Assembly: GCF_000744255.1 (NCBI RefSeq)
Contig: NZ_JQLO01000001.1
Span: 62,001 to 126,000, forward strand
DNA from: Carnobacterium divergens DSM 20623
GTDB lineage: Bacteria; Bacillota; Bacilli; Lactobacillales; Carnobacteriaceae
Length of the DNA: 64,000 nucleotides
Direction of reading: 5' to 3'
Shown: in pieces, positions 31,517 to 49,100 of the stretch
Position numbering within the stretch: position 1 is the stretch's first letter
How the letters are laid out: each line of letters begins with the position of its first letter
Made by a program: the position numbers and the translations under genes
The notes under the pieces: model-generated
What the model was told of the DNA's origin: nothing
Seen by the model: the letters and a program-made list of their open reading frames with translations, nothing else
The model's database searches: none

Positions 31517-31550
31517 AAAAATTGTGAAGCTTGTCTTCACGATTTTTTTC
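31516..31550 (+). terminator. Terminator of the ECF operon
   Basis: AATTGTGAAG pairs with CTTCACGATT across CTTGT with one mismatch and runs into TTTTTTC. Confidence 0.85.
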
Positions 31551-31716
31551 TTTTTAATGGTCGTTAATTAAAGAAATTCTCATAAAAATACCATTGAAAA
31601 ATGAAGTTCCTTTTATAACGAAAAAAAAGAAAGAATAAAATAGCTTGATATAAAAGGAAAGCAGAGGATGAAATTCAATTTTTTTCGAACTTTATAAAAA
31701 CAATCCTGTATTTTTA

Positions 31717-31725
31717 TGCTATAAT
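31717..31725 (+). promoter_or_regulatory. Extended -10 promoter of the antiporter gene
   Basis: TGCTATAAT, an extended -10, lies ~48 bases before the start codon; no good -35 is seen. Confidence 0.55.
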
Positions 31726-31773
31726 TTACACTAGTGATTAAAATAAAAAACTTATAAGGAAGTGAATAGACCT

Positions 31774-33879: not shown

Positions 33880-33913
33880 CTGTTATTTTATTAAATGAAA
33901 CTATTCAGAAAAG

Positions 33914-33957
33914 AACCCAAAAATAATTGATTTTTTTCAATTATTTTTGGGTTTTTT
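33914..33957 (+). terminator. Terminator after the antiporter gene
   Basis: AACCCAAAAATAATTGA pairs with TCAATTATTTTTGGGTT, ending in a T-run. Confidence 0.92.
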
Positions 33958-33959
33958 TC

Positions 33960-33987
33960 TTGTTTTTTTAGAAAAACGCGTTATAAT
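33960..33987 (+). promoter_or_regulatory. Promoter of the pot regulator/transporter operon
   Basis: -35 TTGTTT (33960-33965), 16-base spacer, perfect -10 TATAAT (33982-33987), placed directly after the upstream terminator T-tract. Confidence 0.65.
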
Positions 33988-33995
33988 ATATAAGG

Positions 33996-34066
33996 TTTAA
34001 GTAAACTTAATACTTAGTATAAGTAAACAATTGTCGTTTGAAGTTTAGTAAAAGTAAACTTCAAAC
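33996..34066 (+). promoter_or_regulatory. Series of three palindromes in the pot leader (candidate operator array)
   Basis: Downstream of the -10: TTAAGT-AA-ACTTAA (33997-34010), TACTTA-GTA-TAAGTA (34011-34025) and GTTTGAAGTTTA-GTAAAAG-TAAACTTCAAAC (34036-34066). They share AAGTAAAC-like half-sites. They sit between promoter and the regulator gene, as for an autoregulatory site; the last could also fold as an RNA hairpin. Confidence 0.6.
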
Positions 34067-34109
34067 TAAACAGATTCAAGAAAACCAATGGAACTAAAGG
34101 AGAATTTTA

Positions 34110-34652
34110 ATGGAAATTGGCAAGCGAATCAAAAATTTACGAATTCAAAAAAATTTAACGCAAGAAGAACTGGGAGAACGAACTGATTTAAGTAAAGGAT
34201 ATATCTCTCAATTAGAGCGAGATTTAAGCTCACCATCAATGGAGACTTTTTTTGATATTTTAGAAGTGTTAGGATGCAGTCCTAAAGACTTTTTTGAAGA
34301 AGGACAAAAAGAACAACGTGTGGTTTATTCAGCAGAGGAAATGACGGATTTTGAAGATGAAGAAAAGGGTTATCAAATGAAATGGCTCGTTCCTGAATCA
34401 AATGAAAATGAAATGGAACCTGTGTTGCTTACGTTTAAAGAATCAGGAGAGTTTAAAAAATTTGCGCCCTCTCTTTCAGAAACGTTTGGGTATGTAACGA
34501 AAGGCGCGATTTGTATTGAAATAGGCTTGAAACGTTATTATGCGAAAAAAGGCGAATCGATTTATTTTCATGGTACAAAAGAACATCAATTAAAAAATGA
34601 TTTTAATGGCGAAAGCCAGCTGTTACTTGTGGTAACGAACTCTTACTTATAA
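34110..34652 (+). CDS. XRE-family regulator with cupin domain, polyamine-linked (PuuR-like)
   Basis: 180 residues. N-terminal XRE helix-turn-helix (KRIKNLRIQKNLTQEELGERTDLSKGYISQLERD, residues ~5-40) followed by a C-terminal cupin (~105-178; ETFGYVTKGAICIEIG, GESIYFHGTKEHQLKN). AAAGGAG precedes the ATG. It is the first gene of an operon with potABCD, so it probably senses a polyamine through the cupin and controls its uptake. The three leader palindromes are the likely binding sites. Confidence 0.88.
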   Translation: MEIGKRIKNLRIQKNLTQEELGERTDLSKGYISQLERDLSSPSMETFFDILEVLGCSPKDFFEEGQKEQRVVYSAEEMTDFEDEEKGYQMKWLVPESNENEMEPVLLTFKESGEFKKFAPSLSETFGYVTKGAICIEIGLKRYYAKKGESIYFHGTKEHQLKNDFNGESQLLLVVTNSYL

Positions 34653-34679
34653 TGAAATCACCTAAAGGAGTTATTTAAA

Positions 34680-35774
34680 ATGACAAAAAATTCAATTATC
34701 GCATTTGAACATGTGGTGAAGCAATACGACGAGGATGAGCCGGTTTTAAAGCAAATTGATTTTGAAATTGAACGTGGCAAATTTTATACCTTATTAGGAC
34801 CATCTGGTTGTGGGAAAACAACGATTTTAAAATTGATTGCAGGGTTTATTGAAGCCTCAGAAGGAACGATTTTGTTAGATGGAAAAAAGGTTAACGATGT
34901 TCCAGCAAACAAGCGAAAAGTAAATACGGTTTTCCAAGACTACGCGTTATTTCCTCATATGAATGTCTTTGAAAATATCGCTTTTGGGCTAACGATTAAA
35001 AAAATGGATAAGACTTTGATTAAAGAGAAAGTAAAAGATGTACTAAAAATGGTTCAATTATCTGGTTATGAAAATCGTGGGATTAGTGAAATGTCAGGTG
35101 GTCAACGTCAGCGAGTAGCCATTGCACGAGCGTTAGTAAACGAACCAGAGGTCCTTTTATTAGATGAACCTTTATCAGCGTTAGATTTAAAGTTGAGAAC
35201 AGAAATGCAATATGAATTAAGAGCACTGCAACGTCGTTTAGGAATTACATTTGTATTTGTGACCCATGATCAAGAAGAAGCCTTGGCGATGAGCGATGAG
35301 ATTTTTGTAATGAACAAAGGGGAAATTATTCAAAGTGGAACGCCAGTGGATATTTATGACGAACCGATTAATCGCTTTGTTGCGAATTTTATTGGCGAAA
35401 GCAATATTGTAAAAGGTCATATGGTTGCTGATTACGAAGTGAAATTTGTCGGACATACCTTTGAATGTGTGGATGCAGGGATGAGAGATAATGAAGCCGT
35501 TGAGATCGTGATTCGCCCAGAAGATTTAGCCATTACATCAGTTGAAAAAGGCAAGCTGGCTGCAACCGTTGATACACAATTGTTCCGCGGCGTTCACTAT
35601 GAAATTATTTGTCATGATAGCGAAGCCAATGAGTGGGTGGTTCATTCGACTAAAAAAGCAACAATTGGAGCAAAAGTTGGCTTGTTTTTTGAAGCAGAGG
35701 ACATTCATGTTATGCGCTTTAATGAGACAGAAGAAGAATTTGATGCACGTTTAGAAAGTTACGAGGAAGATTAA
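34680..35774 (+). CDS. potA: Spermidine/putrescine ABC transporter ATP-binding protein
   Basis: 364 residues. Walker [10 protein letters not shown], signature MSGGQRQRV, Walker [17 protein letters not shown], switch His in [10 protein letters not shown]-terminal TOBE-type domain from ~residue 235 ([22 protein letters not shown]). Energises polyamine import. AAAGGAG precedes the ATG 27 bases after the regulator gene. Followed closely by potB, potC and potD. Confidence 0.95.
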
Positions 35775-35785
35775 GGAGGGGTGTT

Positions 35786-36601
35786 ATGACAAAGCAAACA
35801 AAAACGTTTTATTTTATTCCCTATGTTTTTTGGCTATTGCTATTTGTAATTGCCCCGCTATTATTGATTTTATATCAATCTTTTTTCAATGTAGATGGTC
35901 AGTTTACGCTGGAAAATTATCAAACGTATTTTACTTCAGGTACGTATTTAAAAATGACCTTTAATTCCGTTTGGTATGCCTTTTTAATTACCTTATTTAC
36001 GTTATTAATTAGCTATCCTACGGCGTATTTTTTAAATAAAACGAAGCACAAGCAATTATGGCTAATGTTGATTATTTTGCCGACTTGGATTAATTTGCTT
36101 TTGAAGGCTTATGCTTTTATTGGAATATTTAGCATGAATGGGAGTGTCAATCACTTTTTAGAATTTATTGGCATTGGCAGACATCAAATTTTATTTACAG
36201 ACGTGAGCTTTATGTTTGTTGCAGCCTATATTGAACTGCCTTTTATGATTTTGCCAATTTTTAATGCAATTGAAGAATTGAATCCTTCTTACATTAGCGC
36301 TAGCCGTGATCTAGGGGCGAATAATTTTGAAACCTTTAGACGAGTTATTTTTCCTTTAACACTAAACGGTGTGAAAAGTGGTGTTCAAGCAGTCTTTATT
36401 CCTTCACTATCCTTATTTATGCTAACGCGTTTAATTGGGGGGAATCGAGTGATTACCCTTGGAACTGCAATTGAGCAACATTTCTTAGTAACACAAAACT
36501 GGGGAATGGGCTCAACGATTGGCGTGGTTTTAATTGTTGCCATGATTTTAATTATGCTGTTAACAGGGGAAAAGAAAAAGAAAGGGGGCAAACTTAAATG
36601 A
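35786..36601 (+). CDS. potB: Spermidine/putrescine ABC transporter permease
   Basis: 271 residues, about six membrane helices; the EAA coupling loop is SASRDLGANNFETFRRVIFPL. AGGAGGGG precedes the ATG. Overlaps potC by 4 bases. Pairs with PotC to form the channel of the polyamine importer. Confidence 0.93.
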   Translation: MTKQTKTFYFIPYVFWLLLFVIAPLLLILYQSFFNVDGQFTLENYQTYFTSGTYLKMTFNSVWYAFLITLFTLLISYPTAYFLNKTKHKQLWLMLIILPTWINLLLKAYAFIGIFSMNGSVNHFLEFIGIGRHQILFTDVSFMFVAAYIELPFMILPIFNAIEELNPSYISASRDLGANNFETFRRVIFPLTLNGVKSGVQAVFIPSLSLFMLTRLIGGNRVITLGTAIEQHFLVTQNWGMGSTIGVVLIVAMILIMLLTGEKKKKGGKLK

Positions 36602-37431
36602 AAAAAGGCTTGTTAAAAGGTTCAAATTTGTATTTAATCGCTGTTTTTAGTTTATTGTATGCGCCCATCTTTTATTTGATTTTTTATTCCTTTAACGCAG
36701 GCGGCGATATGAATGGCTTCTCAGGCTTTACTTGGGAACATTATTTAGCGGTTTTTGAAGACAAACGGTTGATTACAATTGTCTTGAATACCTTATTGGT
36801 AGCCTTTCTGTCAGCATTGATTGCAACGATGATTGGAACTTTTGGGGCAATGGGCATTTATTATACGAAAAACAGAAAAACAAGAAATACGTTGCTTAGC
36901 TTCAATAATATTTTAATGGTTTCTCCTGACGTCATCATTGGGGCAAGTTTTTTGATCTTCTTTACCTTTTTAGGTTTAGGACTAGGGTTTGGTTCAGTTT
37001 TGCTTTCTCACATTGCCTTTAGCATTCCAATTGTCGTGTTAATGGTCTTGCCAAAAATGCAAGAAATGAATGACTCGATGATTATGGCTGCGCGAGATTT
37101 AGGAGCAAATAGCCTTCAAGTGCTAAGTCGTATTGTTTTGCCAAGTATCACGCCAGGTATTTTAGCAGGCTTTTTTATGGCTTTTACCTATTCGCTTGAT
37201 GACTTTGCAGTGACCTTTTTTGTAACAGGAAATGGATTTAGTACGTTGTCTGTAGAAATTTATTCACGGGCCAGACAAGGGGTTAGTTTGGAAATCAACG
37301 CTTTAAGTGCATTGATGTTTGTTTTCTCACTAGCACTAGTTTCAGGTTATTATTTTATTCAACAACACAACTACAGCAAAAAACAAAAGCTAAGACATAA
37401 GCAGCATGCTGAGGCGGTGGATATGATATGA
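36598..37431 (+). CDS. potC: Spermidine/putrescine ABC transporter permease
   Basis: 277 residues, about six membrane helices, EAA loop MAARDLGANSLQVLSRIVLP, and SLDDFAVTFFVTG typical of PotC. Starts within the potB stop (ATGA) and in turn overlaps potD by 4 bases, so the three are translationally coupled. Confidence 0.93.
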   Translation: MKKGLLKGSNLYLIAVFSLLYAPIFYLIFYSFNAGGDMNGFSGFTWEHYLAVFEDKRLITIVLNTLLVAFLSALIATMIGTFGAMGIYYTKNRKTRNTLLSFNNILMVSPDVIIGASFLIFFTFLGLGLGFGSVLLSHIAFSIPIVVLMVLPKMQEMNDSMIMAARDLGANSLQVLSRIVLPSITPGILAGFFMAFTYSLDDFAVTFFVTGNGFSTLSVEIYSRARQGVSLEINALSALMFVFSLALVSGYYFIQQHNYSKKQKLRHKQHAEAVDMI

Positions 37432-38501
37432 AAAAATTAGGAACCTTAATGGCAGCTATTTTAATTCTATGTGGTGGACTTTACGCCTATGCAAAGCATT
37501 TAGAAAAAGCACAAGGATTTTCAGGGAACAATACGATTACCCTCTATAATTGGGGAGATTACATTGACCCCTCTTTAATAAAGAAATTTGAAAAAGAAAC
37601 AAACTATAAAATTTCCTATGAAACATTTGATTCAAATGAAGCCATGTTTACAAAAATCAAACAAGGTGGAACAGCCTATGATTTAACAATTCCTAGCGAA
37701 TATATGATTCAAAAAATGATCAAAGAAAAAATGTTAGTGCCGCTAGACAAATCAAAAATCAAAGGTCTAAACCATATCGACCCGCGTTTTATGGATTTAG
37801 CTTTCGATCAAAAAAATACCTATTCGATTCCTTATTTTTGGGGAACATTAGGAATTATTTACAATGATAAATATATAAAAGCGAGTGATATGCAACATTG
37901 GAATGATTTATGGCGACCAGAACTAAAAAATAATTTAATGTTGATTGATGGTGCTAGAGAAGTAATGGGGCTGTCGTTAAATAGTTTAGGCTATTCTCTA
38001 AATAGTAAAAATCAAACGGAGCTAGACAAGGCTGCAGCAAAATTAAGTACCTTAACCCCAAATGTCAAAGCCATCGTAGCCGACGAAATTAAAATGTATA
38101 TGATTCAAGAAGAAAGTGCTGCTGCAGTGACTTTTTCTGGAGAAGCCAGTGAAATGTTAGACAACAATGAACATCTGCATTACGTGATTCCAAGTGAAGG
38201 ATCTAATCTTTGGTTTGATAATTTTGTTATTCCTAAAACCGCTAAAAATAAAGAAGGAGCCTACGCCTTCATTAATTTTATGCTAGAGCCTAAAAATGCA
38301 GCACAAAATGCTGAATATATCGGATATTCTACGCCGAATAAGGATGCCATGAAGTATTTACCAAAAGAAATCGCGAATGATAAACAATTTTATCCAAGCG
38401 ATGAAACGATGTCCCATTTAGAAGTGTATCAAGATTTAGGTGCGGACTATTTAGCGATTTACAATGATTTGTTTTTAGAGTTTAAGATGTACCGCCGATG
38501 A
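37428..38501 (+). CDS. potD: Spermidine/putrescine-binding extracellular protein
   Basis: 357 residues. An N-terminal hydrophobic segment (residues ~5-22, with Cys15 in a poor lipobox, ILILC) anchors or exports it; then the PotD fold: TLYNWGDYIDPSLIKKFEKET, YDLTIPSEYMIQKM, SIPYFWGTLGIIYN, VTFSGEASEML, NLWFDNFVIPK. Captures polyamines for PotABC. Last gene of the operon. Lipid attachment is doubtful because the lipobox lacks Gly/Ala before Cys. Confidence 0.92.
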   Translation: MKKLGTLMAAILILCGGLYAYAKHLEKAQGFSGNNTITLYNWGDYIDPSLIKKFEKETNYKISYETFDSNEAMFTKIKQGGTAYDLTIPSEYMIQKMIKEKMLVPLDKSKIKGLNHIDPRFMDLAFDQKNTYSIPYFWGTLGIIYNDKYIKASDMQHWNDLWRPELKNNLMLIDGAREVMGLSLNSLGYSLNSKNQTELDKAAAKLSTLTPNVKAIVADEIKMYMIQEESAAAVTFSGEASEMLDNNEHLHYVIPSEGSNLWFDNFVIPKTAKNKEGAYAFINFMLEPKNAAQNAEYIGYSTPNKDAMKYLPKEIANDKQFYPSDETMSHLEVYQDLGADYLAIYNDLFLEFKMYRR

Positions 38502-38580
38502 TTGGAAAACTCAGTAAAAACGCGTTAAATCAACAAAAATTCAGGAGAATAAGCCACCGTTTTTACTGCCAGTTTTCCAA
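38502..38580. repeat. Large inverted repeat directly after potD
   Basis: TTGGAAAACT-CAGTAAAAACG (38502-38522) is complementary to CGTTTTTACTG-CC-AGTTTTCCAA (38558-38580): 21 matching bases with only a 2-base bulge, enclosing a 35-base loop. It begins at the potD stop and precedes the terminator at 38587. May be an RNA-stabilising hairpin or a palindromic element remnant. Confidence 0.75.
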
Positions 38581-38586
38581 AATTCT

Positions 38587-38619
38587 ACCAAAAGCGACGA
38601 AATTGTCGCTTTTTTTGGT
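38587..38619 (+). terminator. Terminator of the pot operon
   Basis: ACCAAAAGCGAC pairs with GTCGCTTTTTTTGGT (one-base slip in the A/T run) around GAAATT. Confidence 0.8.
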
Positions 38620-38867
38620 GTTTTCTACCAGAGAATTCTACCAGAGATTTTTAGTTGGAAAGCTTGATTTATGTAAGGATGAGCGTAGATATTTTTTTAA
38701 TAGAAAAATCATCATTTTAAAAGGAGTGTTAAAAATTGCTTTTTTTATCTAGAAAAAGGCTACTAAAAACATCTACTGCAAACGGTGAAAATGTTCATAT
38801 TCTATTACTAAAAAAGATTAGAAATAAATAATTAGTTTGTTCTAGTTAATAATGTTGTATCCTGTGA

Positions 38868-39176
38868 ATTCTATCATTTGAAGAAAATCGTTACTTTTAC
38901 GCGACCCTAAATCGAAAAGACTACAAAAAGAATGAACCTTTAGATGAAGATATCGCGATTATTAGACCTGGAAAAGTTCGTTCTTTGCTAGACTTAATTT
39001 TTAAAAATCACTTATTTTCATTAAATGATATTCTAAATGACTATTATATTGACCGTTCATTTTTAGAATCTCTATTTGGGATTGAAAATAAATTTCTAAG
39101 CAAGTACTCTGAAGAGTCTAATAGAGAATATTTTAATAACTCAAATGTTGTTTCTTTGTTCGCTAAGGAAAACTAA
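38868..39176 (+). pseudogene. 3' fragment of a lost gene (about 102 codons, no start)
   Basis: Open frame from just after a stop at 38865 to TAA at 39176, without a start codon preceded by a ribosome binding site. The translation has normal protein character (FEENRYFYATLNRKDYKK, then IAIIRPGKVRSLLDLIF, ending NNSNVVSLFAKEN), and a terminator follows, so it looks like the true C-terminus of a truncated gene. The helical tail ending in VVSL recalls C-termini of XRE/ImmA-IrrE type regulators of prophages and mobile elements, but the metalloprotease motif is absent and this is only a weak impression. Confidence 0.55.
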
Positions 39177-39184
39177 TTAATATT

Positions 39185-39213
39185 GAAGGACGTTCTTATT
39201 AAGACGTCTTTTT
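39185..39213 (+). terminator. Terminator after the gene fragment
   Basis: AGGACGT pairs with ACGTCTT (one G-T pair) around TCTTATTAAG, followed by a T-run. Confidence 0.75.
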
Positions 39214-39479
39214 TTTTCGATTAAATTATAAGTGAACTTCGCAACAATGGAGATTGAAATAGCAATAAAATAAGGAGTCTTACTCTCGTTTTCCGAAACT
39301 ATTAATCAACTTAAAGAGACAAAATAAATGAATAAAGAAGAGGCAAAACGAGTATATTGTTATAGTTTTTTTAAATACTAGAGAAAATTATTAAGAAGTA
39401 TTTATGAATGATTTTTGAGGGAGAAATGAACAAATTTTGAAAGAAATTTAGAGGAATATAGGAAGGTGTAGGCTTAAAA

Positions 39480-39508
39480 TTGAGGATAAAATAAGGATAT
39501 AAGATAAT
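39480..39508 (+). promoter_or_regulatory. Candidate promoter of the lysin operon
   Basis: TTGAGG (39480-39485), 17-base spacer, GATAAT (39503-39508), ending ~36 bases before the first lysin ATG. Confidence 0.45.
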
Positions 39509-39544
39509 AACTAAACATTATTATTGAAAGAAAGGAGGAAGAAA

Positions 39545-40207
39545 ATGGGGAAAATAGAATCAGTAATTAATTGGTTTCAAATAAGAAAAGGGAAAGTAAC
39601 TTATTCAATGACGAATCGTTATGGTCCAAACAGCTATGATTGTAGTTCTGCTGTGTATTATGCATTAATGCAGGGAGGTTTTGTAGCTGAGGGAACGTTT
39701 CCTGGAAATACAGAAAGTTTGTACCAGTTGGAAGGTAAGTTGTTAACACCGATTAGTCGCGGTGAAGTTCGACGAGGAGATATTTTTGTTGCAGGTATAA
39801 AGGGGAATAGTAGTGGTTCAAATGGTCATACGGGTGTTTTTTTGAGTAATCAAACTATTATTCACTGTACTGGTGGTCGAGGAATTGTTGAAACTCAAGC
39901 ATCGGGATGGATTGGAGGTCCACCAGTTTATTTTTATCGCTTAAAAGGATCAGAAGATAATGAAGGAACAAGTAAACCTAAAAAAGGAGAGACAACTATG
40001 CAATGTTTTTATCAAATTAAAGGAAATCCAGGGATTTATTATTTCGATGGAAAGAATCTTACAGGATTGAATGATATGGATGAACTAAATATTTTAAATC
40101 AGATTTACAAAGCAAATAATGACAATGATATGCCGCGTATTATTACTGATGGAGCTTGGTTTAAAAGGTTAGTAGATATGGCAAAACGTCCAGTAAATAA
40201 TGTTTAA
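39545..40207 (+). CDS. Phage-type peptidoglycan hydrolase (Amidase_5 / NlpC-P60 fold) with C-terminal binding domain
   Basis: 220 residues from the ATG at 39545 (AAAGGAGG upstream; an in-frame codon at 39524 lies before that site). Residues ~1-140 match the bacteriophage peptidoglycan hydrolase family (PF05382, as in phage Dp-1 Pal): Cys33 in SYDCSSAVYYAL, His95 in NGHTGVFL and His107 in IIHCTG. A linker (~141-151) leads to a 69-residue C-terminal domain starting MQCFYQIKG, shared with the next gene. That domain has its own AGGAG site and ATG (39998). No signal peptide, so release would need a holin, lysis or another route. No phage genes adjoin. Confidence 0.85.
   Translation: MGKIESVINWFQIRKGKVTYSMTNRYGPNSYDCSSAVYYALMQGGFVAEGTFPGNTESLYQLEGKLLTPISRGEVRRGDIFVAGIKGNSSGSNGHTGVFLSNQTIIHCTGGRGIVETQASGWIGGPPVYFYRLKGSEDNEGTSKPKKGETTMQCFYQIKGNPGIYYFDGKNLTGLNDMDELNILNQIYKANNDNDMPRIITDGAWFKRLVDMAKRPVNNV
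39985..40000 (+). promoter_or_regulatory. Internal ribosome binding site and in-frame start inside lysin 1
   Basis: AGGAG (39985-39989) sits 8 bases before an in-frame ATG (39998) that begins MQCFYQIKG exactly at the domain boundary. Would yield a free 69-residue binding domain. Confidence 0.75.
39998..40207 (+). repeat. Duplicated binding-domain segment, copy 1
   Basis: Homologous in sequence and length (69 codons plus stop) to 40793-41002. The encoded domains differ at 12 of 69 positions by my count; the nucleotide match extends upstream into the internal ribosome binding site. Confidence 0.9.
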
Positions 40208-40267
40208 AATAAGATGGATTATTCAATTTTTTTGAATTTTAAGAGTCAAAATGAAAGGAATTGGACT

Positions 40268-41002
40268 ATGGTAAATTTTACATCAACTCAATTAGAAACA
40301 GCAAAAACAGTATGGAATACACTAAAACAGTTTGGCTATAATGATAATTCCACGGCAGGTATTATCGGTAATCTATATGCAGAGTCAGCTCTCAATCCAA
40401 ATGTAAATGAACACAGTGGAGGCGGAGGTTATGGATTAGGTCAGTGGACTCCAAAAAGTAATCTATATATGCAAGCAAGCATTTGTGGGATTTCGAACAG
40501 TGAAGCAGAAACAGTACAAGGGCAAGCAAAGATAATCGCACAAGGAGATACAACAGGTCAATGGTTGGCTTATGGGAATACGGCCTATCATCCGACTGTA
40601 AAAAATTATCAAGTGCTGTCAGAATTCAAAAAAATAGCTGATTTAACAGCAGCAGCAGCAGCAGCGAATTTTTGTGCGCATTGGGAAAGGCCTAATGTAA
40701 AGTATGCGCATATGGATATTCGAATAGATGCTACTAACAGTATTTATGAATTATTAGGAACAACTCAAAAAAATAATAAAGGAGAGGTTACAATGCAGTG
40801 TTTTTATCAAGTTAAAGGAAGTGCGGGGGTTTACTATTTTGATGGAAAGAATCTTACAGGATTGAACGACATGGATGAATTAAATATTTTAAATAGAATT
40901 TATAAAGAAAATAATGAAAAAGATATGCCTTATATTGTTACAGATGGGGCTTGGTTTAAGAGATTGACTGATATGGCAAAACGCCCAGTAAATAATATCT
41001 AA
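40268..41002 (+). CDS. Phage-tail-lysozyme-type peptidoglycan hydrolase with the same C-terminal binding domain
   Basis: 244 residues from the ATG at 40268 (AAAGG upstream; a longer in-frame start lacks a site). Residues ~1-165 match the phage tail lysozyme fold (PF18013): FTSTQLETAKTVWNTL, GIIGNLYAESALNPN with the likely catalytic Glu39, GGYGLGQWTP, and NFCAHWERPN. The C-terminal 69 residues (176-244, MQCFYQVKG...) copy the binding domain of the preceding lysin, again with an internal AAAGGAGAGG and ATG at 40793. Expected to cut glycan strands, complementing the amidase/endopeptidase of the first gene. No signal peptide. Confidence 0.85.
   Translation: MVNFTSTQLETAKTVWNTLKQFGYNDNSTAGIIGNLYAESALNPNVNEHSGGGGYGLGQWTPKSNLYMQASICGISNSEAETVQGQAKIIAQGDTTGQWLAYGNTAYHPTVKNYQVLSEFKKIADLTAAAAAANFCAHWERPNVKYAHMDIRIDATNSIYELLGTTQKNNKGEVTMQCFYQVKGSAGVYYFDGKNLTGLNDMDELNILNRIYKENNEKDMPYIVTDGAWFKRLTDMAKRPVNNI
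40778..40795 (+). promoter_or_regulatory. Internal ribosome binding site and in-frame start inside lysin 2
   Basis: AAAGGAGAGG (40778-40787) precedes an in-frame ATG (40793) that opens the C-terminal binding domain, at the same position as in lysin 1. Confidence 0.75.
40793..41002 (+). repeat. Duplicated binding-domain segment, copy 2
   Basis: Second copy of the 210-base segment at 39998-40207; direct orientation, 795 bases apart. Recombination between copies would delete the lysozyme domain. Confidence 0.9.
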
Positions 41003-41056
41003 AAATTAATTTAAATAGTTAGCGAATTAGCTTTAATAGAAAAAATAATAATTTCT

Positions 41057-41087
41057 ATCGAGTAGAATCTTCTACTCGATTTTTTTT
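41057..41087 (+). terminator. Terminator of the lysin operon
   Basis: ATCGAGTAGAA pairs with TTCTACTCGAT, followed by eight T. Confidence 0.92.
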
Positions 41088-41112
41088 GTAAGCAATAAGA
41101 GAAAGGGAGTAG

Positions 41113-41170
41113 TTGACAATTAAAAATCAACATGATAGTATGATAAATACATAAAACGTAACGATTACGA
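41113..41170 (+). promoter_or_regulatory. Promoter and Zur-type operator of the zinc-starvation operon
   Basis: -35 TTGACA (41113-41118) with a -10 near 41136-41144, then ACGTAA-CGA-TTACGA (41156-41170), close to the Gram-positive Zur box TCGTAATNATTACGA (right half exact, left half one change). The downstream genes (S14 paralogue, ZinT) are classic Zur targets, supporting the call. Confidence 0.72.
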
Positions 41171-41215
41171 TTTAAACCTAATAAAGGAAATTTAATTATT
41201 AAAGGAGAGAAGACA

Positions 41216-41485
41216 ATGGCAAAAAAATCAAAAATAGTAAAAGCAGAAAAACAACGTCAACTGGTTAGTGACTATGCCTCAATTCGTAAAGAATTAAAAA
41301 AACAAAGAAATTATCAAGCATTAGCAAAATTACCAAAAGATTCAAATCCGAATCGCTTAAGAAATCGAGATCAACTAGATGGCCGTCCCAGAGGATATTT
41401 ACGAAAATTTGGCTTATCTAGAATTAACTTTCGAGAATTGGCATTGAAGGGTCAAATTCCAGGTGTGAAAAAAGCAAGCTGGTAG
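41216..41485 (+). CDS. rpsN: 30S ribosomal protein S14, zinc-independent paralogue
   Basis: 89 residues, no cysteine at all, so it lacks the CXXC zinc ribbon of the primary S14. [26 protein letters not shown] and [16 protein letters not shown] are conserved S14 sequences. In Bacillus the equivalent paralogue replaces the zinc-binding form during zinc starvation under Zur control. AAAGGAG precedes the ATG, and a Zur-like box lies upstream. First gene of an operon with a 45-aa basic protein and a ZinT lipoprotein. Confidence 0.93.
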
Positions 41486-41534
41486 ACTATTTTTAGGTAG
41501 TCACAAAATAATAAAATGACAGGAGAGACTCTAT

Positions 41535-41672
41535 ATGGAAAAACAAGATTTATCAAGCGCCTATCGCCGTTTAGTTAAAAGTACAAATAGAAAAACACGA
41601 AAAAGAGCATTAAAACTTATCCATGAACATAAAAGAAAGAGAACCAAACAATTGATACAGCTGACAAAATAA
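41535..41672 (+). CDS. Small basic protein in the zinc-starvation operon (45 aa)
   Basis: Short gene starting MEKQDLSSAYRRLVKSTN, with AGGAGAG 7 bases upstream of the ATG. More than a third of residues are Lys/Arg and no cysteine is present; predicted helical. It lies 49 bases after the S14 gene and 65 before zinT in the same orientation. The sequence recalls a family of tiny Lactobacillales proteins that I remember as 'putative metal homeostasis protein', but I cannot verify the match. It could be an accessory ribosomal or RNA-binding peptide made when zinc is scarce. Confidence 0.75.
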   Translation: MEKQDLSSAYRRLVKSTNRKTRKRALKLIHEHKRKRTKQLIQLTK

Positions 41673-41737
41673 TTTTAGTTGCATTAATTGAACGAACAAA
41701 GACACTAAAATAAGCAAGAGTTAAAAAGGGGAGCATT

Positions 41738-42421
41738 ATGAAAAAAAAGATGGCATTGGTTTTAGTAATGATAGTTGCAATTGTAAGTACGGGATGTATA
41801 AAAAATGAAAAAACAAAAAAAACGGAGACGTCTTCTAGTCAATTAGAAAAAAAAGAAACCGAAACACACTCTCACCATCACGCTACAAAAGCAAGCGAGG
41901 GAATTTTTGAAGATAATGAAGTCAAAGAACGTTCCATTTCAGATTGGCAAGGCTCTTGGAAATCGATTTATCCCTATTTAGTGGATGGTTCACTAGATGA
42001 AGTATTTAAAGAAAAAGCTAAGACGGGGGATAAAACTGTCGATGAATACAAAAAATATTATGAATCAGGCTATAAATCAGACATAGAAGCCATTGATGTT
42101 TACAATAACAAAATGGCGTATCTTGTTAACGGTGAGTGGCAAGAGGCAGAGTATGAATCTGCAGGCTATCAAATTTTAACCTATGAATCGGGTAAAAAAG
42201 GAGTTCGTTATCTTTTTACTTCTAAGACAGAAGAAACACAGGCTCCAAAGTATGTTCAATTTAGCGATCACCTTATAGAACCTCATAAGAGTGGTCATTT
42301 TCATATCTACATGGGAAATGAGAGTCACGAAGCGTTGTTGACGGAAATGACTAATTGGCCGACGTTCTTCCCAAGTAAAATGAGTAAAAAAGAGATTATT
42401 CACGATATGCTGTATCATTAA
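41738..42421 (+). CDS. zinT: Zinc-binding lipoprotein, ZinT (YodA) family
   Basis: 227 residues. Lipoprotein signal peptide with Cys20 in VSTGC; a charged linker contains a metal-binding HSHHH cluster (~46-50). The ZinT domain (~60-227) shows SDWQGSWKSIYPYL, YKKYYESGYKSDI and the C-terminal metal ligands EPHKSGHFHIYMGNESHEAL. Scavenges zinc at the cell surface for an AdcABC-type importer. A plain GGGGAG site precedes the ATG. Third gene of the Zur-boxed operon; no terminator is visible before the next promoter. Confidence 0.9.
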   Translation: MKKKMALVLVMIVAIVSTGCIKNEKTKKTETSSSQLEKKETETHSHHHATKASEGIFEDNEVKERSISDWQGSWKSIYPYLVDGSLDEVFKEKAKTGDKTVDEYKKYYESGYKSDIEAIDVYNNKMAYLVNGEWQEAEYESAGYQILTYESGKKGVRYLFTSKTEETQAPKYVQFSDHLIEPHKSGHFHIYMGNESHEALLTEMTNWPTFFPSKMSKKEIIHDMLYH

Positions 42422-42435
42422 TATCAAAAATCCCC

Positions 42436-42466
42436 TTGACATGAAATGCATTCCATACTCTATAGT
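42436..42466 (+). promoter_or_regulatory. Promoter with palindrome matching that of the GH4 gene
   Basis: -35 TTGACA (42436-42441), TGAAATGCATTCCA (42442-42455), -10 TATAGT (42461-42466), 19-base spacer. Differs from the licH promoter palindrome by two bases and has the identical -35, -10 and spacing. Confidence 0.75.
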
Positions 42467-42492
42467 AATTATAGGAGCAACGATTACTATAG
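42460..42492 (+). repeat. 10-bp inverted repeat spanning -10 and leader
   Basis: CTATAGTAAT (42460-42469) is complementary to ATTACTATAG (42483-42492). The left arm includes the -10, so this is more likely a second DNA-level operator than an RNA hairpin. Confidence 0.5.
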
Positions 42493-42507
42493 AAATGGGG
42501 AGACAAG

Positions 42508-43350
42508 ATGAGTCATACGATTATTTTTATGGATGTAGATGGGACGCTTTGTGATGATACCGGACGTGTACCAGAATCAGCCGCAATGGCGATTAAAGCA
42601 GCAAGAAAGAATGGACATTTGGTCTATTTATGTACAGGACGTTCAAAATCAGAGCTTAATGAAGAGATCATGTCGATTGGCTTTGATGGCTTAATAGGAG
42701 CTGGCGGAGGATATGTTGAAAGCAATGGTGAAGTTCTAAGTCATTTAAAATTTGAAAAAGAGACAATGTTAGATTTAATTGATTTTTTAGATGAAAATGG
42801 TGTGGCGTATTATTTAGAATCAAATGATGGATTATTTTCTAGTAAAAACTGTGTATCAACAATGAATGAAATTGTCTTTTCGGACATAGATCAAGCAAGT
42901 GAGGATTATCAAAGTTTAAGATCAACCTTAGATGTCTTTTGTAGTTATTTGACTGAAAAAAATGATTCTATCGATTATTCTACTATTAATAAAGTTTCCT
43001 TTATCAACAACCAAGTTCCTTTTGGAGTGGTTCAAGAAAAATTTGGTACTGAATTTAATGTGATGCGAAGTACGGTTCCAGTTTTTGGAAAAAACAGTGG
43101 CGAAATCGTCTTGAAAGGAATTCACAAAGGCGTTGCCATTACTCAATTGCTTGAACACCTTAATGAAGAGGTTTCAAGAACCATGGCGTATGGCGATGCT
43201 CATAATGATATTGAGATGTTTGAGTTGGTAAATGTTGGAGTAGCAATGGGAAATGCTAGCGAAGATTTGAAAAAAATTGCGGATGATTTAACGACAGCTC
43301 ATAATCAAGATGGTATCTATCAAAGTTTTAAAAAATATCAATTAATTTAA
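42508..43350 (+). CDS. Cof-type HAD-IIB family phosphatase
   Basis: 280 residues. Motif I DVDGTLCDD, motif II CTGRSKSEL, Lys in the motif III region, and motif IV GDAHNDIEMFELVNVGVAMGNA are complete. Probably a sugar-phosphate phosphatase. GGGGAGAC precedes the ATG. It is linked to the GH4 phospho-glucosidase by an almost identical promoter/operator, which hints at a shared carbohydrate signal although the two genes are 23 kb apart. Confidence 0.87.
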   Translation: MSHTIIFMDVDGTLCDDTGRVPESAAMAIKAARKNGHLVYLCTGRSKSELNEEIMSIGFDGLIGAGGGYVESNGEVLSHLKFEKETMLDLIDFLDENGVAYYLESNDGLFSSKNCVSTMNEIVFSDIDQASEDYQSLRSTLDVFCSYLTEKNDSIDYSTINKVSFINNQVPFGVVQEKFGTEFNVMRSTVPVFGKNSGEIVLKGIHKGVAITQLLEHLNEEVSRTMAYGDAHNDIEMFELVNVGVAMGNASEDLKKIADDLTTAHNQDGIYQSFKKYQLI

Positions 43351-43361
43351 GGAATGAAGAT

Positions 43362-43394
43362 GGCCCCTTAGAGTTTTATAAGGGGTATTTTTTT
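43362..43394 (+). terminator. Terminator after the HAD gene
   Basis: CCCCTTA pairs with TAAGGGG, followed by TATTTTTTTA. Confidence 0.85.
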
Positions 43395-43522
43395 ATTTCT
43401 TTTTTATTAGTTTTAATTGGTATAATTGTGAATGATTAAATATACTTTTTTATAAATAGAATTAAGTAATAATTAAAGGGATATCTTTAGACAACATTAT
43501 AACATTATGTTAATATTCATTT

Positions 43523-43536
43523 TGTAAGCGGAAACA
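43523..43536 (+). promoter_or_regulatory. cre (CcpA) site before the first LPMO gene
   Basis: TGTAAGCGGAAACA matches the cre consensus TGWAANCGNTNWCA at all positions but one and lies 27 bases before the start codon. Confidence 0.7.
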
Positions 43537-43562
43537 AAAAATAAGGATGAGGAGATGTTCTA

Positions 43563-44150
43563 ATGAAGAATCGGTTAATAAAATTTATTTTGGTGGCAGC
43601 GTTAGTTGTTGGAGGATTAGGTGTTTTCACAGCTTCAGCATCGGCACATGGATATGTATCATCACCAGGCAGTCGTGCCTATAAAGGCAGTAACTTAGGT
43701 GGCAATTTAAACACAAATGTTGGACAAGCTCAATGGGAACCACAAAGTATTGAAACATTAAAAAATACCTTTATTTCAGGTAAGCTAGCAAGTGCTGGTT
43801 TAACTCAATTTGCACCATTAGATGAACAAACTGCAACCAGATGGCATAAAACAGACATTAAAACAGGCGTTCAACCTATTACGTGGACATTAACAGCAAA
43901 ACACAGCACAACTAATTGGAAATACTTTATGACAAAAGAAGGCTGGAACCCAAATCAACCATTAGACATTAAAAACTTTGATTTAATTGGTCAAGTGAAT
44001 GATAATGGTGCGATTCCGACTTCACCAACTACCCACAATGTAACCATTCCAGCAAATCGCACAGGCTATCATGTAATCTATGCAGTTTGGACAATCAATG
44101 ATACAGCAAATGCATTTTATCAAGCAATTGATGTGAATGTAGTAAAATAA
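43563..44150 (+). CDS. Lytic polysaccharide monooxygenase, AA10 (chitin-active type)
   Basis: 195 residues. Signal peptide 1-28 ends SASA, so the mature protein begins with His29 (HGYVSSPGSR). His29 and His114 (TAKHSTTNW) form the copper histidine brace. The domain is single, without a carbohydrate-binding module. YVSSPGSRAY, EPQSIE, TGVQPITW and the tail FYQAIDVNVV are standard AA10 text. Copper-dependent oxidative cleavage of chitin (or cellulose) outside the cell. AGGATGAGGAG precedes the ATG. A near-consensus cre site lies upstream. A paralogue follows. Confidence 0.93.
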   Translation: MKNRLIKFILVAALVVGGLGVFTASASAHGYVSSPGSRAYKGSNLGGNLNTNVGQAQWEPQSIETLKNTFISGKLASAGLTQFAPLDEQTATRWHKTDIKTGVQPITWTLTAKHSTTNWKYFMTKEGWNPNQPLDIKNFDLIGQVNDNGAIPTSPTTHNVTIPANRTGYHVIYAVWTINDTANAFYQAIDVNVVK

Positions 44151-44163
44151 ATAAATCAATCAA

Positions 44164-44194
44164 TGCCATCTCTTAATTAGAGATGGTTTTTTTT
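44164..44194 (+). terminator. Terminator after the first LPMO gene
   Basis: CCATCTCT pairs with AGAGATGG around TAATT and runs into eight T. Confidence 0.92.
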
Positions 44195-44529
44195 ATTTAA
44201 GAATAGAAAAGAAATATAGTTCAGAAGAAATGTTTTTTAATCTGAATTTAATTTATGTGTTGTTGTTATATAAAAATTGGTATTTTTATTTCTGTATTAA
44301 GAAAAAAACAAATAGTATAAAAAGAGTTAGATAAATGATAAAATCCGTTAAAAAAAATGATACACAACTTCTGAAAAATAAAGAACAGTGGATTTAGAAA
44401 AAATTGGTCTAATGATAATAAAAAATAAGTATCAAATAAAAAATAAAAATAATTTAATTTTTATAATTATAAAAATGTAGGTATGCTATTCTTAAAAAGT
44501 AACAAAATAGAATAAAAGGAGAAGTGATT
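44195..44529. other. AT-rich leader of the second LPMO gene
   Basis: About 335 bases with no supported gene. Contains a perfect 18-bp palindrome TTTTTATAATTATAAAAA (44458-44475) and an extended -10-like TGCTATTCT shortly after. No cre site comparable to that of the first LPMO was found. Confidence 0.5.
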
Positions 44530-45117
44530 ATGAAAAAGAATCTATTAAAATTTGTTTTAACGGTTACATTGGTATTAGGAGGAGTTGCAGCATACGCATC
44601 AACAGCTTCAGCACATGGATATGTTTCTTCACCTGCAAGTCGCGTTTTTAAAGGAACTGAACTAGGTGGAAAGTTAAACGAAAATATTGGCGATGCGGCA
44701 TATGAACCACAAAGTATTGAAACCTTCAAAGACACTTTTGTGACTGGTAAATTAGCAAATGCAGGAATTTCTCGTTTTTCATTATTAGATGAACAAACAG
44801 CTGAAAGATGGAACAAAACAGATATTAAAACAGGAGTTCAACCTTTTACTTGGCATTTAACAGCTCCACATTCAACAACGACTTGGGATTATTACATGAC
44901 AAAACAAGGTTGGGACCCAAATCAACCATTAGATATTAAAAACTTTGAATTAGTAACACAACAAGATGATCATCATGCTATTCCAGTTGAAAATCCTACA
45001 CAACTTGTAACGATTCCAGCTGATCGTTCTGGATATCATGTTATTTTAGCAGTTTGGAATATTTTTGATACACCAAATGCATTTTACCAAGCAATTGATG
45101 TAAATGTAGTCAAATAA
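44530..45117 (+). CDS. Second AA10 lytic polysaccharide monooxygenase
   Basis: 195 residues from the ATG at 44530 (AGGAG eight bases upstream; an earlier in-frame ATG is too close). Same plan as the preceding gene: signal peptide 1-28, mature His29, second brace residue His114 (TAPHSTTTW), ending FYQAIDVNVVK. By eye the two mature proteins are about two thirds identical, so this is a tandem duplication that has diverged. Own leader and terminator show it is separately transcribed. Secreted, copper-dependent. Confidence 0.93.
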   Translation: MKKNLLKFVLTVTLVLGGVAAYASTASAHGYVSSPASRVFKGTELGGKLNENIGDAAYEPQSIETFKDTFVTGKLANAGISRFSLLDEQTAERWNKTDIKTGVQPFTWHLTAPHSTTTWDYYMTKQGWDPNQPLDIKNFELVTQQDDHHAIPVENPTQLVTIPADRSGYHVILAVWNIFDTPNAFYQAIDVNVVK

Positions 45118-45123
45118 ATAAAA

Positions 45124-45163
45124 AAAGAGCGCCTAATTCAAAAAAATTAGGTGCTCCTTTTTT
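45124..45163. terminator. Terminator between LPMO 2 and the nucleoside phosphorylase
   Basis: GAGCGCCTAATT pairs with AATTAGGTGCTC (one mismatch), A-run before and T-run after; can serve both strands. Confidence 0.88.
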
Positions 45164-45184
45164 ATTTATTTCCTGGGAAATGAG

Positions 45185-45925
45185 CTACATTAAACAAGCT
45201 TTTAAAACCAGTTCAGCAGCATTTTGATGAAGAATTTCATAGTCTGTATCTTCTATTTTTTCAAGATTCATACGACTAAGATGTACCACTAAACAATTAG
45301 CAGCAGGAATTTGATAGAGAGAGGCTAATAAATAAAGCACAGCCGTTTCCATATCGCAGTTTAACACATGACGCTCTTGCCAGTAAGACATGAAAGCAGA
45401 ATCTACTTTGGGTCCATTAGAAAGTTGAGGGTCTCTCCCTTGACCTAAATAATAAGATTGCGTGGTCATACCTAATCCAACATGACTAGTAAAGCCTTCT
45501 TTTATTGCTTTTTCAGTTAGTTTTGCTAATAAAATTGGATCAGCAGTTGCAGGATAAGTATCAGGTGCATAGTTGGCTAGCATTCCTTTGTCTCGGACCA
45601 TCCCATGGTTAAACATTAAATCACCAGCTTGAATGTCGTTACTCCAAGCACCACATCCTCCTAAACGAACAAATTGTTTAGCACCACTTTGAATCAACTC
45701 AATTACAGCAATTTCAGTCGATCCAACTCCCATTCCAGTAGAACAAATGGAAACTCTTTTGCCCTTCCATAAGCCACTGACTAAAGTGAGTTCTCGATTT
45801 TGAGAGACGATTCGTGTCTGTTCCCAATTCTGAGAGATGAGTGCCACGCGAGCGGGGTCTCCTACTAAAAGAGTAAGCTCACCGAGATCATCGGAAGTGA
45901 CGGTTTTTAAATGAGTGGTATTCAT
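45185..45925 (-). CDS. Nucleoside phosphorylase (uridine phosphorylase-like, PNP/UDP family 1)
   Basis: 246 residues. Phosphorolysis of nucleosides to base and ribose-1-phosphate. LLVGDPARVALIS and the phosphate-binding Arg, STGMGVGSTEI, RLGGCGAW, and the ribose-binding CDMETAVLYLLA are all intact. Uridine phosphorylase-like features outweigh purine ones, but substrate specificity within the family is hard to read. GGAGGATATCT precedes the ATG. Monocistronic. Confidence 0.85.
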   Translation of the reverse strand: MNTTHLKTVTSDDLGELTLLVGDPARVALISQNWEQTRIVSQNRELTLVSGLWKGKRVSICSTGMGVGSTEIAVIELIQSGAKQFVRLGGCGAWSNDIQAGDLMFNHGMVRDKGMLANYAPDTYPATADPILLAKLTEKAIKEGFTSHVGLGMTTQSYYLGQGRDPQLSNGPKVDSAFMSYWQERHVLNCDMETAVLYLLASLYQIPAANCLVVHLSRMNLEKIEDTDYEILHQNAAELVLKACLM

Positions 45926-46189
45926 AGATATCCTCCAATTTTAGTATGATTAAAGAAATCAAACATATGATAAATTCCTACCTATTCTAACAAAAGTAAG
46001 GACTATTAGCAAAAAAGCACTAATTGTATTATTTCTTAATCTTATATGAAGTAATAATTCATGATGTTTTCGTGAAAAAACCTTCATTCACTTGTATTTA
46101 TGATCTAAGAACATTAAAATAAAAGGGTTAATAGAAATTTATTTTTGCACAAACTTAGTTAAAACAACAAATTGAAAAGAGGAGAAGAC

Positions 46190-49100
46190 ATGAGAAAGCA
46201 AAAAACAATGGATGGGAATACGGCAGCGGCCTATATTTCATATGCGTTCACTGAAGTTGCAGCGATTTACCCAATTACCCCCAGTTCAACAATGGCCGAA
46301 TTAGTGGATCAATGGTCATCAGATGGCAAGAAAAATTTATTTGGGCAAGAAGTGAAAGTCGTTGAAATGCAATCAGAAGCAGGCGCGGCAGGAGTTGTTC
46401 ATGGGTCGTTAAAAACCGGAACGTTAACCTCGACTTACACAGCTTCACAAGGCTTGCTGTTGATGATTCCCAATATGTATAAAATCGCAGGCGAATTGTT
46501 GCCAACTGTTTTTCACGTTGCCAGTCGCGCAGTCACAACGAATGCGCTAAATATTTTTGGCGATCATAGTGACGTAATGGCAGCTCGCCAAACCGGTTTT
46601 GCCATGCTTTGTGAAGGCAGTGTTCAAGAAGTGATGGATTTATCAGCTGTTGCACATTTAGCAACACTAGAAAGTTCATTACCCTTTGTAAACTTTTTTG
46701 ATGGCTTTCGTACAAGTCATGAGATTCAAAAAATCGATGTCTTAGAATACGATGAATTAAAAGGTCTTATGAACAAAGACGCTCTGACAGTCTTTCGTCA
46801 TAATGGGATGAATCCAAATCATCCAACGGTTAGCGGAACAAACCAAAATCCTGATATTCATTTTCAACAAAGAGAAACGATTAATAGTCATTATGAAACT
46901 GTTCCAACGATCGTGAAACACTACATGGATGAAATCAACCAGTTGCGAGGAACGAATTATGATTTGGTGAATTATTATGGGCATGCTGAAGCAACAGAAG
47001 TTCTTGTTGCAATGGGCTCTGTGACGCCGGTTATTGAAGAAGTTGTGGACTATTTAAATAGTCAAGGCAAGCAAGTGGGCTTGATGAATATTCGCTTGTA
47101 TCGTCCATTTCCAGTTGCAAGCTTTATTGAGCAGTTGCCAAAAACAGTCGAAAGAATTGCTGTTTTAGATCGTACAAAAGAACCAGGAGCAGGTGGAGAG
47201 CCACTTTTATTAGATGTTCAAAGTGCCCTTTATGATTCAGCGATACGTCCAAAAGTAATTGGTGGACGATATGGTCTAGGATCAAAAGACGTGACGTCAA
47301 GCGATATTTTAGGAATTTTTGATCATTTAAGTCAAGATAAAACGTCATTGAAACCGAGATTTACAGTTGGAATTGTGGATGATGTGACGCATTTATCCTT
47401 GCCTAAAGGGGAAAAAATTGATTTAACACCAGCTGGAACGTATCAAGCAAAATTCTGGGGCTTTGGTAGTGATGGAACGGTGGGAGCGAATAAATCAGCC
47501 ATCAAATTGATTGGGGATCATACTGATTTGTATGCACAAGGGTACTTTTCCTATGATTCTAAAAAGTCTGGCGGATTGACCGTTTCCCATTTACGCTTTG
47601 GTCAAGAGCCAATCAAATCAAGCTTTTTAATTGAAACAGCTGATTTTGTTGCCTGCCATACTGCGGCGTATTTAAATCAATACGATCTAGTTAAAGGCTT
47701 GAAAAAAGGCGGTATTTTCTTGTTAAATACAGCTTGGGACGAAGAGCAACTTAGCAAAATGCTGCCAACTAAATTAAAGAAATACCTAATTGAAAATGAT
47801 ATCCAATTTTATACAATTAATGCGGTTAAGTTAGCGAATGAAGTTGGATTAGGCCGACGGATCAATACAATTATGCAAACTGCTTTTTTCAAGGTAACAG
47901 AAATTATGCCGTTTGAGGAAGTCGTGAATTTGATGAAGGCTGATGCAATGGCGGTTTATGGAAAAAAATCCATTAAAATTGCAGAGACCAACCAAAAGGC
48001 GATTGATGCAGCAGTCGAATTAGTTCATAAAGTGACGATTCCTGAAACATGGGCAACGGAAGAAGTTAGTGAAGAAGAGCGAGACACAAGTCATTTGCCA
48101 AAATTTGTTTTCAATATTTTAGAACCGATGAATCGTCAAGAAGGAGATTCTTTAACAGTTAAAAATTTAATCGATAACAAGATGACAAGTGGCGAAATCC
48201 CAGTTGGTATGGCTGCTTATGAAAAACGTGGGGTTGCTTTAGAAGTCCCAGAATGGATTCCTGAAAATTGTACCATGTGTAATGAATGTGCCTTTGTTTG
48301 TCCTCATGCAGCGATTCGTCCGTTTTTAGCAGATGAAGAAGAAATGGAAGAAGCACCAGCTGGCTATATTGTACGAGATATCCATGGAGCAGACGGACTG
48401 AACTATCGCATTCAAGTAGCAGTAGATGATTGTACAGGTTGTGGGTTATGTGTGGCCGCTTGTCCGGCTAAAGAAAAAGCCATTCAAATGCGTCCATATG
48501 AAGAACAAAAAGAGCAAGCTGTTAACTGGGCTTTCTCAATGACGTTAAAAGCAAAAGCAAACCCATTTAAGAAAAATACAGTTAGAGGATCACAATTTGA
48601 ACAACCGTTAATGGAATTTTCAGGCGCTTGTTCTGGTTGTGGTGAAACCCCTTATGTGAAATTGTTGACGCAATTATTTGGCGATCGAATGATGATTGCT
48701 AATGCAACAGGCTGTTCTTCTATTTGGGGAGGATCAAGTCCTGCAACTCCTTATACAACGAATAGTGAAGGTTGTGGCCCTGCGTGGTCAAACTCTTTAT
48801 TAGAAGACAATGCTGAATATGGTTACGGAATGCATTTAGCAAATCAATCAAGACGGGAAGGCATTGCCCTTAAAATGATTGAAGCCATTGAAGCGGGTAT
48901 TCCAAGTGATGGGTTAAAAGAAGCTTTTGAAAATTGGATGAATGGTATGCTTGAAGGTGAAGGGACTAAGGAACGTGCCAATGAGCTGTTATTTGCTCTG
49001 CTTCAAGAAAAAGAACAAGCGCCAATTTTGGAAGAGATTTATCAAGAGCGGAATCTTTTCATTAAACCGAGTCAATGGATGATTGGCGGCGACGGCTGGG

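Follow-up and report, generated by a model that had tools for sequence, protein, structure and literature searches.

A chromosomal pair of lysin genes with matching binding domains and predicted internal starts, a candidate module built on shared binding subunits

The closest described systems are multimeric lysins, which have been described with one enzyme gene per ring. In Lys170 of phage F170/08, an internal ribosome-binding site and ATG at the domain boundary give free binding domains that join the full-length enzyme, and LysIME-EF1 likewise has an internal ribosome-binding site and ATG whose free domains join the enzyme. Such free domains are reported as proven for Lys170, LysIME-EF1, three clostridial lysins, and others (PMC9430671), and PMC7098653 also reports proven internal starts in lysins of this kind; according to PMC9430671, an internal start need not lead to assembly, LysJavan488 being the case given. 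According to PMC12203907, structure 7D55 belongs to the Lys170 domain study, to which PMC9862828 also ties it while naming the phage phiM1EF22. A Lys170-type complex combines one full-length chain with three free domains, although PMC12203907 calls these complexes pentamers. In PlyC (PlyCA and a PlyCB octamer), the enzyme sits on a ring of small binding subunits that have their own gene, and one kind of catalytic polypeptide is described. Two activities also occur together in other forms. The fused lysin PlyCYU (PMC12442389) is reported to hold a peptide or amide cutter and a glycan cutter in one polypeptide, and enterococcal phages are reported with cassettes of two endolysins, described with different binding domains (PMC10630273, PMC11428236, PMC10054541). 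The main texts of these three papers do not use the word "internal" and so discuss no internal start under that word; PMC10054541 does mention the added ribosome site of Lys170.

The locus analyzed here lies in a window of 64,000 nucleotides, part of a 2.62-Mb single-contig genome (G000:C1:62001-126000). It resembles Lys170 and LysIME-EF1 in its internal start signals and differs from these phage-encoded systems, each described with one enzyme gene, in being chromosomal and in having two enzymes of predicted different activities side by side. As in PlyC, each enzyme would be carried on a ring of small binding subunits; the window domain, however, is encoded inside both enzyme genes. We consider it reasonably probable that the locus is a two-enzyme lysin module whose enzymes are both supplied from a common pool of binding subunits. 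The open-access literature searched gave no account of such sharing between two enzymes, which is no proof of absence, subscription papers being outside the scope of the search; the author of the sequence-only reading from which the analysis started likewise knew of no such arrangement. The features of the locus are as follows.

39407..39540, + strand: leader of the pair, with a promoter-like TTGAGG-17-GATAAT at 39480-39508 (by scan)
39545..40207, + strand: gene 1, Amidase_5 (NlpC/P60-type) hydrolase with C-terminal binding domain, 220 aa (PF05382, E 2.5e-45, residues 4-139)
39985..39989, + strand: internal ribosome-binding site 1, AGGAG with 8-base spacer (read from the sequence; Shine-Dalgarno [SD] pairing)
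39998..40207, + strand: predicted free binding subunit 1, 69 aa, internal ATG 39998-40000 (sequence; homology to 7d55)
40268..41002, + strand: gene 2, Phage_lysozyme2 hydrolase with C-terminal binding domain, 244 aa (PF18013, E 5.5e-30, residues 10-163)
40780..40784, + strand: internal ribosome-binding site 2, AGGAG with 8-base spacer (read from the sequence; SD pairing)
40793..41002, + strand: predicted free binding subunit 2, 69 aa, internal ATG 40793-40795 (57/69 identity to subunit 1; AF2 model)
41057..41080, + strand: terminator-like hairpin after gene 2 (by scan)

Two enzymes with one kind of binding domain

Pfam bears out the claim that these are tandem lysins with different catalytic domains, gene 1 also matching NLPC_P60. 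Amidase_5, CHAP, and M23 enzymes cut peptide or amide bonds, and Phage_lysozyme2 and Phage_lysozyme enzymes cut glycan. For gene 2, ATG 40268 is the most plausible start; a further ATG in the same frame lies upstream at 40214. The two products end in domains of 69 residues for which our recount gave exactly the 57 identities claimed. Between these copies dN is 0.09 and dS 0.79 by NG86, or 0.11 and 0.70 by YN00; judged by these distances, the copies are no recent duplicates, and a dS of 0.7 to 0.8 implies that the internal site has outlasted substantial synonymous change.

A third related lysin is encoded in the same genome (G000:C1:1447257-1447985, or L010:1489-2235), with a Phage_lysozyme2 domain, its own internal SD and ATG, and a divergent binding domain. 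Compared with gene 2, it shares 135 of 173 residues in the catalytic part and just 28 of 68 in the binding domain, so that relatives of this kind do not have matching domains as a matter of course. Upstream of it lie reading frames that look broken by eye. A LexA-like box, CGAACGTATGTTCC, stands at -50 of this gene and was reached by 0 of 200 shuffles; genome-wide, LexA-like sites with at most one mismatch are not commoner than a reversed control (31 by strand versus 27).

Neither 69-residue domain taken alone matched Pfam, and the gene 1 domain had no match in PHROGs. Searched against the PDB, a profile built from 12 relatives hit a single sequence, 7d55 (E 7.9e-15), titled "lys170 CBD" in Foldseek. 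The AF2 model of subunit 2, made from 15 alignment rows (pLDDT 77, pTM 0.58), has its best fold match in the same entry (Foldseek E 1.6e-3; VIA Z 8.8, rmsd 1.9, 63 residues aligned); LysIME-EF1 (6ist, Z 6.8), a similar fold and a weaker match, and PlyCB (Z 6.5 to 6.7) come next in VIA, and each of the three functions as a ring-forming binding domain. In the model, only the 7d55 match stands clear of a common arrangement, that to PlyCB lying under the level that distinguishes kin. Since both the profile and the fold lead to 7d55, the window domain is homologous to the binding domain of Lys170, which forms tetramers; the likeness goes beyond analogy, and the Lys170-type mechanism proposed in the sequence-only reading now has homology behind it. 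By profile and by VIA, the pair thus carries a homologue of the oligomerizing domain of a Lys170-type multimeric endolysin. Searching by a protein pattern from the window domain alone gave no relatives in viral contigs and one spurious short match in genome contigs (L019). The assembled lysin LysP7951, whose internal start is proven, came into consideration as a homologue through its alignment with the phage lysin Javan237, and was set aside because its C-terminal part looks unrelated by eye; in phage AM8 the binding domain was not seen by eye.

Internal starts at the domain boundary

The sequence-only reading had placed an AGGAG-type site and an in-frame ATG, at 39998 and 40793, exactly at the domain boundary of both genes. 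Both are there, with a spacer of 8 bases in each case, so that each gene has the in-frame SD and ATG typical of Lys170-type lysins. The neighboring linkers do differ, as had been said: in blocks of 15 bases, the DNA of genes 1 and 2 is identical at no more than 8 positions upstream of position -15, at 11 in the SD block, and at 9 to 14 in the domain blocks.

These signals were compared across 50 genes with the domain, comprising 24 genes in pair loci, 17 single bacterial or prophage genes, and 9 from phages or viral contigs, a set hand-picked from the loci retrieved, so that its counts describe no random sample. Near copies (L024, L111, L114, L141) were dropped before counting, as were the phage lysins Javan237, RG-TP1, and 63302, the fragment L149, and weak matches in G103 and G780; of 24 IMG/VR loci, only L044, L046, L047, and L048 were used. 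An ATG stands at the domain start in 45 of the 50 genes. Pairing with the anti-SD sequence reaches -7 kcal/mol or better at 40 of these 45 ATGs versus 10 of 194 other in-frame internal ATGs in the set, controls that include some true gene starts, which if anything raises their count. The boundary signals are therefore above chance. For comparison, the genes' own starts reach this level in 26 of the 37 genes with a true start codon set. Two Lactococcus phage genes pair more weakly at the domain start (-5.8 and -6.4). ATG and SD motif occur together in 43 of the 50 genes, across at least six catalytic kinds by Pfam; the kinds found on this binding domain are Amidase_5, Phage_lysozyme2, CHAP, M23, Phage_lysozyme, and Glyco_hydro_25.

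It could be argued that the AGGAG and the ATG are by-products of the linker peptide K-G-E and of the conserved first Met of the domain, and that no free domain is made. The peptide itself does favor an SD, a median of 23% of synonymous recodings pairing as well as the real linker. Nevertheless, mean pairing is -9.1 observed versus -6.7 recoded, and among the 43 motif-bearing genes the motif falls in one reading phase in 32 and in another, where it encodes other peptides, in 11, which points to the nucleotide motif itself. Moreover, median pairing at the 45 internal ATGs comes near that of the 37 true starts (-9.0 versus -9.6), and the homologous Lys170 has a reported internal start. We regard this explanation as very improbable. 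In our judgment, the internal starts are in all likelihood used, and the free domains, as in the homologues, likely assemble with full-length chains.

Recurrence of the pair and sources of the free domain

Within the order, which is Lactobacillales-like, the domain turned up in 16 of 395 sampled genomes; it was also found in 21 of 105 genomes of a neighboring family (f2), and 3 of 398 drawn from the class; in the window's own family (f1), 1 of 18 genomes has it, namely the window genome itself. The search for the same pair with a conserved internal ribosome-binding site, proposed with the sequence-only reading, gave 11 pair loci (L100-L106 and L138-L141) spread over 10 of the 105 f2 genomes, and further ones on Enterococcus raffinosus megaplasmids (L023, L024), the E. 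raffinosus-type genomes being of family f2. By these predicted gene pairs, the two-enzyme design is not unique to the window genome. L141 (genome G407) looks identical to the plasmid locus L023. We count 12 pair loci, with L023 standing for L024 and L141, and 10 distinct ones when L023, L139, and L140 are taken as one. Their enzymes combine as follows.

Amidase_5 + Phage_lysozyme2: window, L100, L101, L103, E. raffinosus (Pfam)
CHAP + Phage_lysozyme: L102, L104 (Pfam)
M23 + Phage_lysozyme2: L105 (Pfam)
M23 + Phage_lysozyme: L106 (Pfam)
CHAP-like by eye (no Pfam match at 1e-3) + Phage_lysozyme: L138

All nine distinct loci in which both enzymes are assigned by Pfam join a peptide or amide cutter to a glycan cutter, for which random matching of the 18 enzymes gives a probability of 0.011 if the loci are independent; the first gene of L138, with no Pfam assignment, was left out of this count. 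The order of the two kinds varies. The same binding domain, with internal SD and ATG, also occurs on fused bifunctional lysins, L144 (4302-5513, Amidase_5 and Glucosaminidase) and L148 (4264-5583, M23 and Glucosaminidase), which like PlyCYU join in one polypeptide a peptide or amide cutter and a glycan cutter, activities that the window pair divides between two genes. By eye, no capsid or tail genes were recognized in 12 loci read for this purpose (stretches of 5 to 13 kb), and phage-like genes surround several single lysins (L107, L109, L110, L117, L143). In L139, a third, Amidase_5-like lysin (5109-5801) follows the pair; its binding part matches the domain weakly (E 0.0018), and it was left out of the counts.

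The sequence-only reading had staked its case on conservation of the internal ATG and ribosome-binding site among homologues. This conservation fails in 7 of the 24 pair genes: the ATG is absent from 5 (gene 1 of L023, L139, and L140, and both enzymes of L138), and 2 have the ATG without an SD motif (L102a, L106b). What stands is that every locus concerned keeps another source of free domain, as a shared pool predicts: in L138 this is a stand-alone domain gene, elsewhere it is the partner gene. Such absences are confined to the pair genes, all 26 remaining genes of the set having both signals (Fisher 0.0035; 5/20 versus 0/26, Fisher 0.011, when related E. raffinosus-type loci are collapsed), the absences being few and the loci partly related. 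The stand-alone gene of L138, a separate subunit gene as in PlyC, has its own AGGAGG before the ATG and lies between the two enzymes that lack the domain-start ATG; its product is identical to their domains at 64 and 66 of 68 residues. Three of the ATG-less genes still pair well with the anti-SD (L139a -7.3, L140a -7.9, L138a -7.4), the SD of L023 gene 1 being weak (-4.3), and in the E. raffinosus-type gene 1 and in L138b alternative in-frame ATGs occur close to the boundary, none with an SD in a good position. We infer that starts were lost rather than never present.

Partner domains are also matched. Over the 10 distinct loci, domain identity averages 0.83 within loci (0.45 to 1.00) versus 0.39 between them (up to 0.83), a match reached 1 time in 20,001 under permutation of partners, and the partner is the best match in 8 of 10 loci; the exceptions, L101b and L106a, each come closer to a domain from a different locus. 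The L104 copies are identical, those of L106 agree at 30 of 67 residues, and those of the E. raffinosus-type loci are 57 to 64% identical. In a domain tree of 71 columns, with many forks unresolved, the two window domains join (99/98), as do the partners in L100, L102, and L105 and the L138 trio; L103 and L106 are unresolved, L101b groups with L100 rather than with L101a, and the gene 1 and gene 2 domains of the E. raffinosus-type loci form separate groups and have thus not evolved in concert. A shared wall ligand or gene conversion might alone account for the likeness of partner domains.

This leads to the view that the pair consists of two independent Lys170-type lysins with the same wall ligand, each with its own domains and rings, alike through gene conversion or selection for the ligand, and mixing incidentally. 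It fits the full internal start kept by both window genes, so that sharing is not needed to explain the window pair, the 12 residues by which domains of such age differ, and the existence of single-gene lysins of the family, all 17 examined having the internal start. It sits less well with the restriction of missing ATGs or SDs to pair genes, where every locus retains some source, and with the stand-alone domain gene of L138; ring-forming domains 83% identical in one cell would, moreover, probably mix. We hold independent lysins to be unlikely, though the most serious of the alternatives weighed here. The claim that the two enzymes share one pool thus finds comparative support in recurrent pairs, one-sided absence of the start, and a stand-alone domain gene, and that sharing has a functional effect appears an even matter from these comparisons.

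Genomic setting and proposed mechanism

Both lysin genes sit between a potD-like gene ending at 38501 and an rpsN-like gene starting at 41216 (names given by eye). No phage genes and no holin were recognized by eye among the open reading frames overlapping 30000-48000, a genome-wide search for the PF04860 portal family found none, and BhlA, the one holin family sought genome-wide, gave no match over its cut-off. The window pair is chromosomal, and these inspections and searches recognized beside it neither the holin nor the phage structural genes that mark the lysis cassette of a phage or prophage. In G002, a close genome without the pair, the potD-rpsN interval has 73% DNA identity to 39407-39527 and holds the related leader and a 63-aa open reading frame with no Pfam match (L071:6850-7041, - strand); in G001, potD is followed by unrelated DNA with an LXG/DUF3958 gene set (L072:4681-6745, - strand), so the place after potD is variable. 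By eye, the 63-aa frame resembles a broken-looking frame upstream of the third lysin. Elsewhere in the window, two adjacent genes (43563-44150 and 44524-45117) look by eye like chitin-active LPMOs, and each cross-matches the other's G002 counterpart at 71 to 72% DNA identity.

A terminator-like hairpin was found by scan after gene 2 and none between the genes, so both are probably on one transcript. The promoter-like site in the leader is of a kind no more frequent across the stretch than in shuffles. No competence box, SOS pattern, or strict sigma-70 pattern was found in the 300 bases before the pair; the best LexA-type box upstream of it agrees at 10 of 14 positions and was equalled in 147 of 200 shuffles, and a supposed regulator remnant at 38877-39176 has no Pfam match.

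Elsewhere, a near-invariant leader, TATACTAACGTTGTAAGATCTTACAAAA, with a perfect 16-bp palindrome, precedes lysin genes in L100, L101, L104, L108, and L138 and occurs at L150, L152, L155, L157, L158, and L159; in some pairs, separate copies precede each gene. Allowing up to 3 mismatches, it was found in 5 of 12 genomes searched, at 10 sites each just before a lysin-like start, versus 0 for the reversed pattern, with two sites (G212:C51 and G378:C13) judged by eye and the pattern drawn from four of the loci later found. It looks like the mark of a lysin regulon and is absent from the window's genome. As a hairpin, it was rejected, folding just moderately better than shuffles (z -1.7 to -2.3, four leaders).

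Compact lysis islands were also observed. The E. raffinosus-type island (L023:3537-6933; also L139, L140, L141), in which no capsid genes were recognized, has Peptidase_M78-type (5.5e-06) and HTH_3 (4.3e-12) genes facing a DUF722-like gene (E 0.042, under its cut-off), together with a BhlA holin (3.1e-08) and the two lysins. Another, L142:2824-5060, combines Phage_holin_4_1 and an Amidase_5-like lysin bearing this binding domain with genes related to the HTH and DUF722-like ones.

The setting bears on whether the pair is the remnant of a decaying prophage lysis cassette, with no present function and signals persisting by descent. Such decay could account for the lack of recognized holin and phage genes beside the pair, for the 63-aa frame and related leader at the same place in the close genome, and for the broken-looking frames upstream of the third lysin. 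Set against this, both window frames are intact, with a dN/dS of about 0.12 to 0.15 between the domain copies, pairs recur without recognized phage structural genes (by eye) in 10 genomes of another family, and the palindromic leader precedes lysin genes in those 5 of 12 genomes. We judge a mere remnant to be quite improbable.

Returning to the shared module, we propose a model in which one transcript would give an Amidase_5 enzyme, acting on peptide or amide bonds, and a lysozyme-like enzyme, acting on glycan chains. The internal ATG in each gene would, as in homologues, give a free 8-kDa Lys170-type binding domain; these domains would form a ring, of four as in Lys170 and LysIME-EF1, and a full-length chain of either enzyme would sit among free domains from either gene, resulting in one pool and mixed rings. 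No signal peptide or other export signal was seen by eye in either product, and hence the enzymes may be released by lysis of some cells.

More broadly, and as a tentative proposal that falls somewhat short of even likelihood, such loci may represent combinatorial lysins of bacteria rather than of phages, with two bond specificities on one shared ring, mixed rings having both activities, and subunits coming from both genes, from one, or from a dedicated gene; in some enterococcus-like genomes they may form a regulon marked by the palindromic leader. If true, two complementary hydrolases on interchangeable subunits would account for the cutting of both bond types at a single site in the wall, and the natural variants, with the subunit encoded in both genes, in one, or separately, would be available for testing assembly. 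Phage-type lysins would then have been kept by bacteria outside recognizable prophages.
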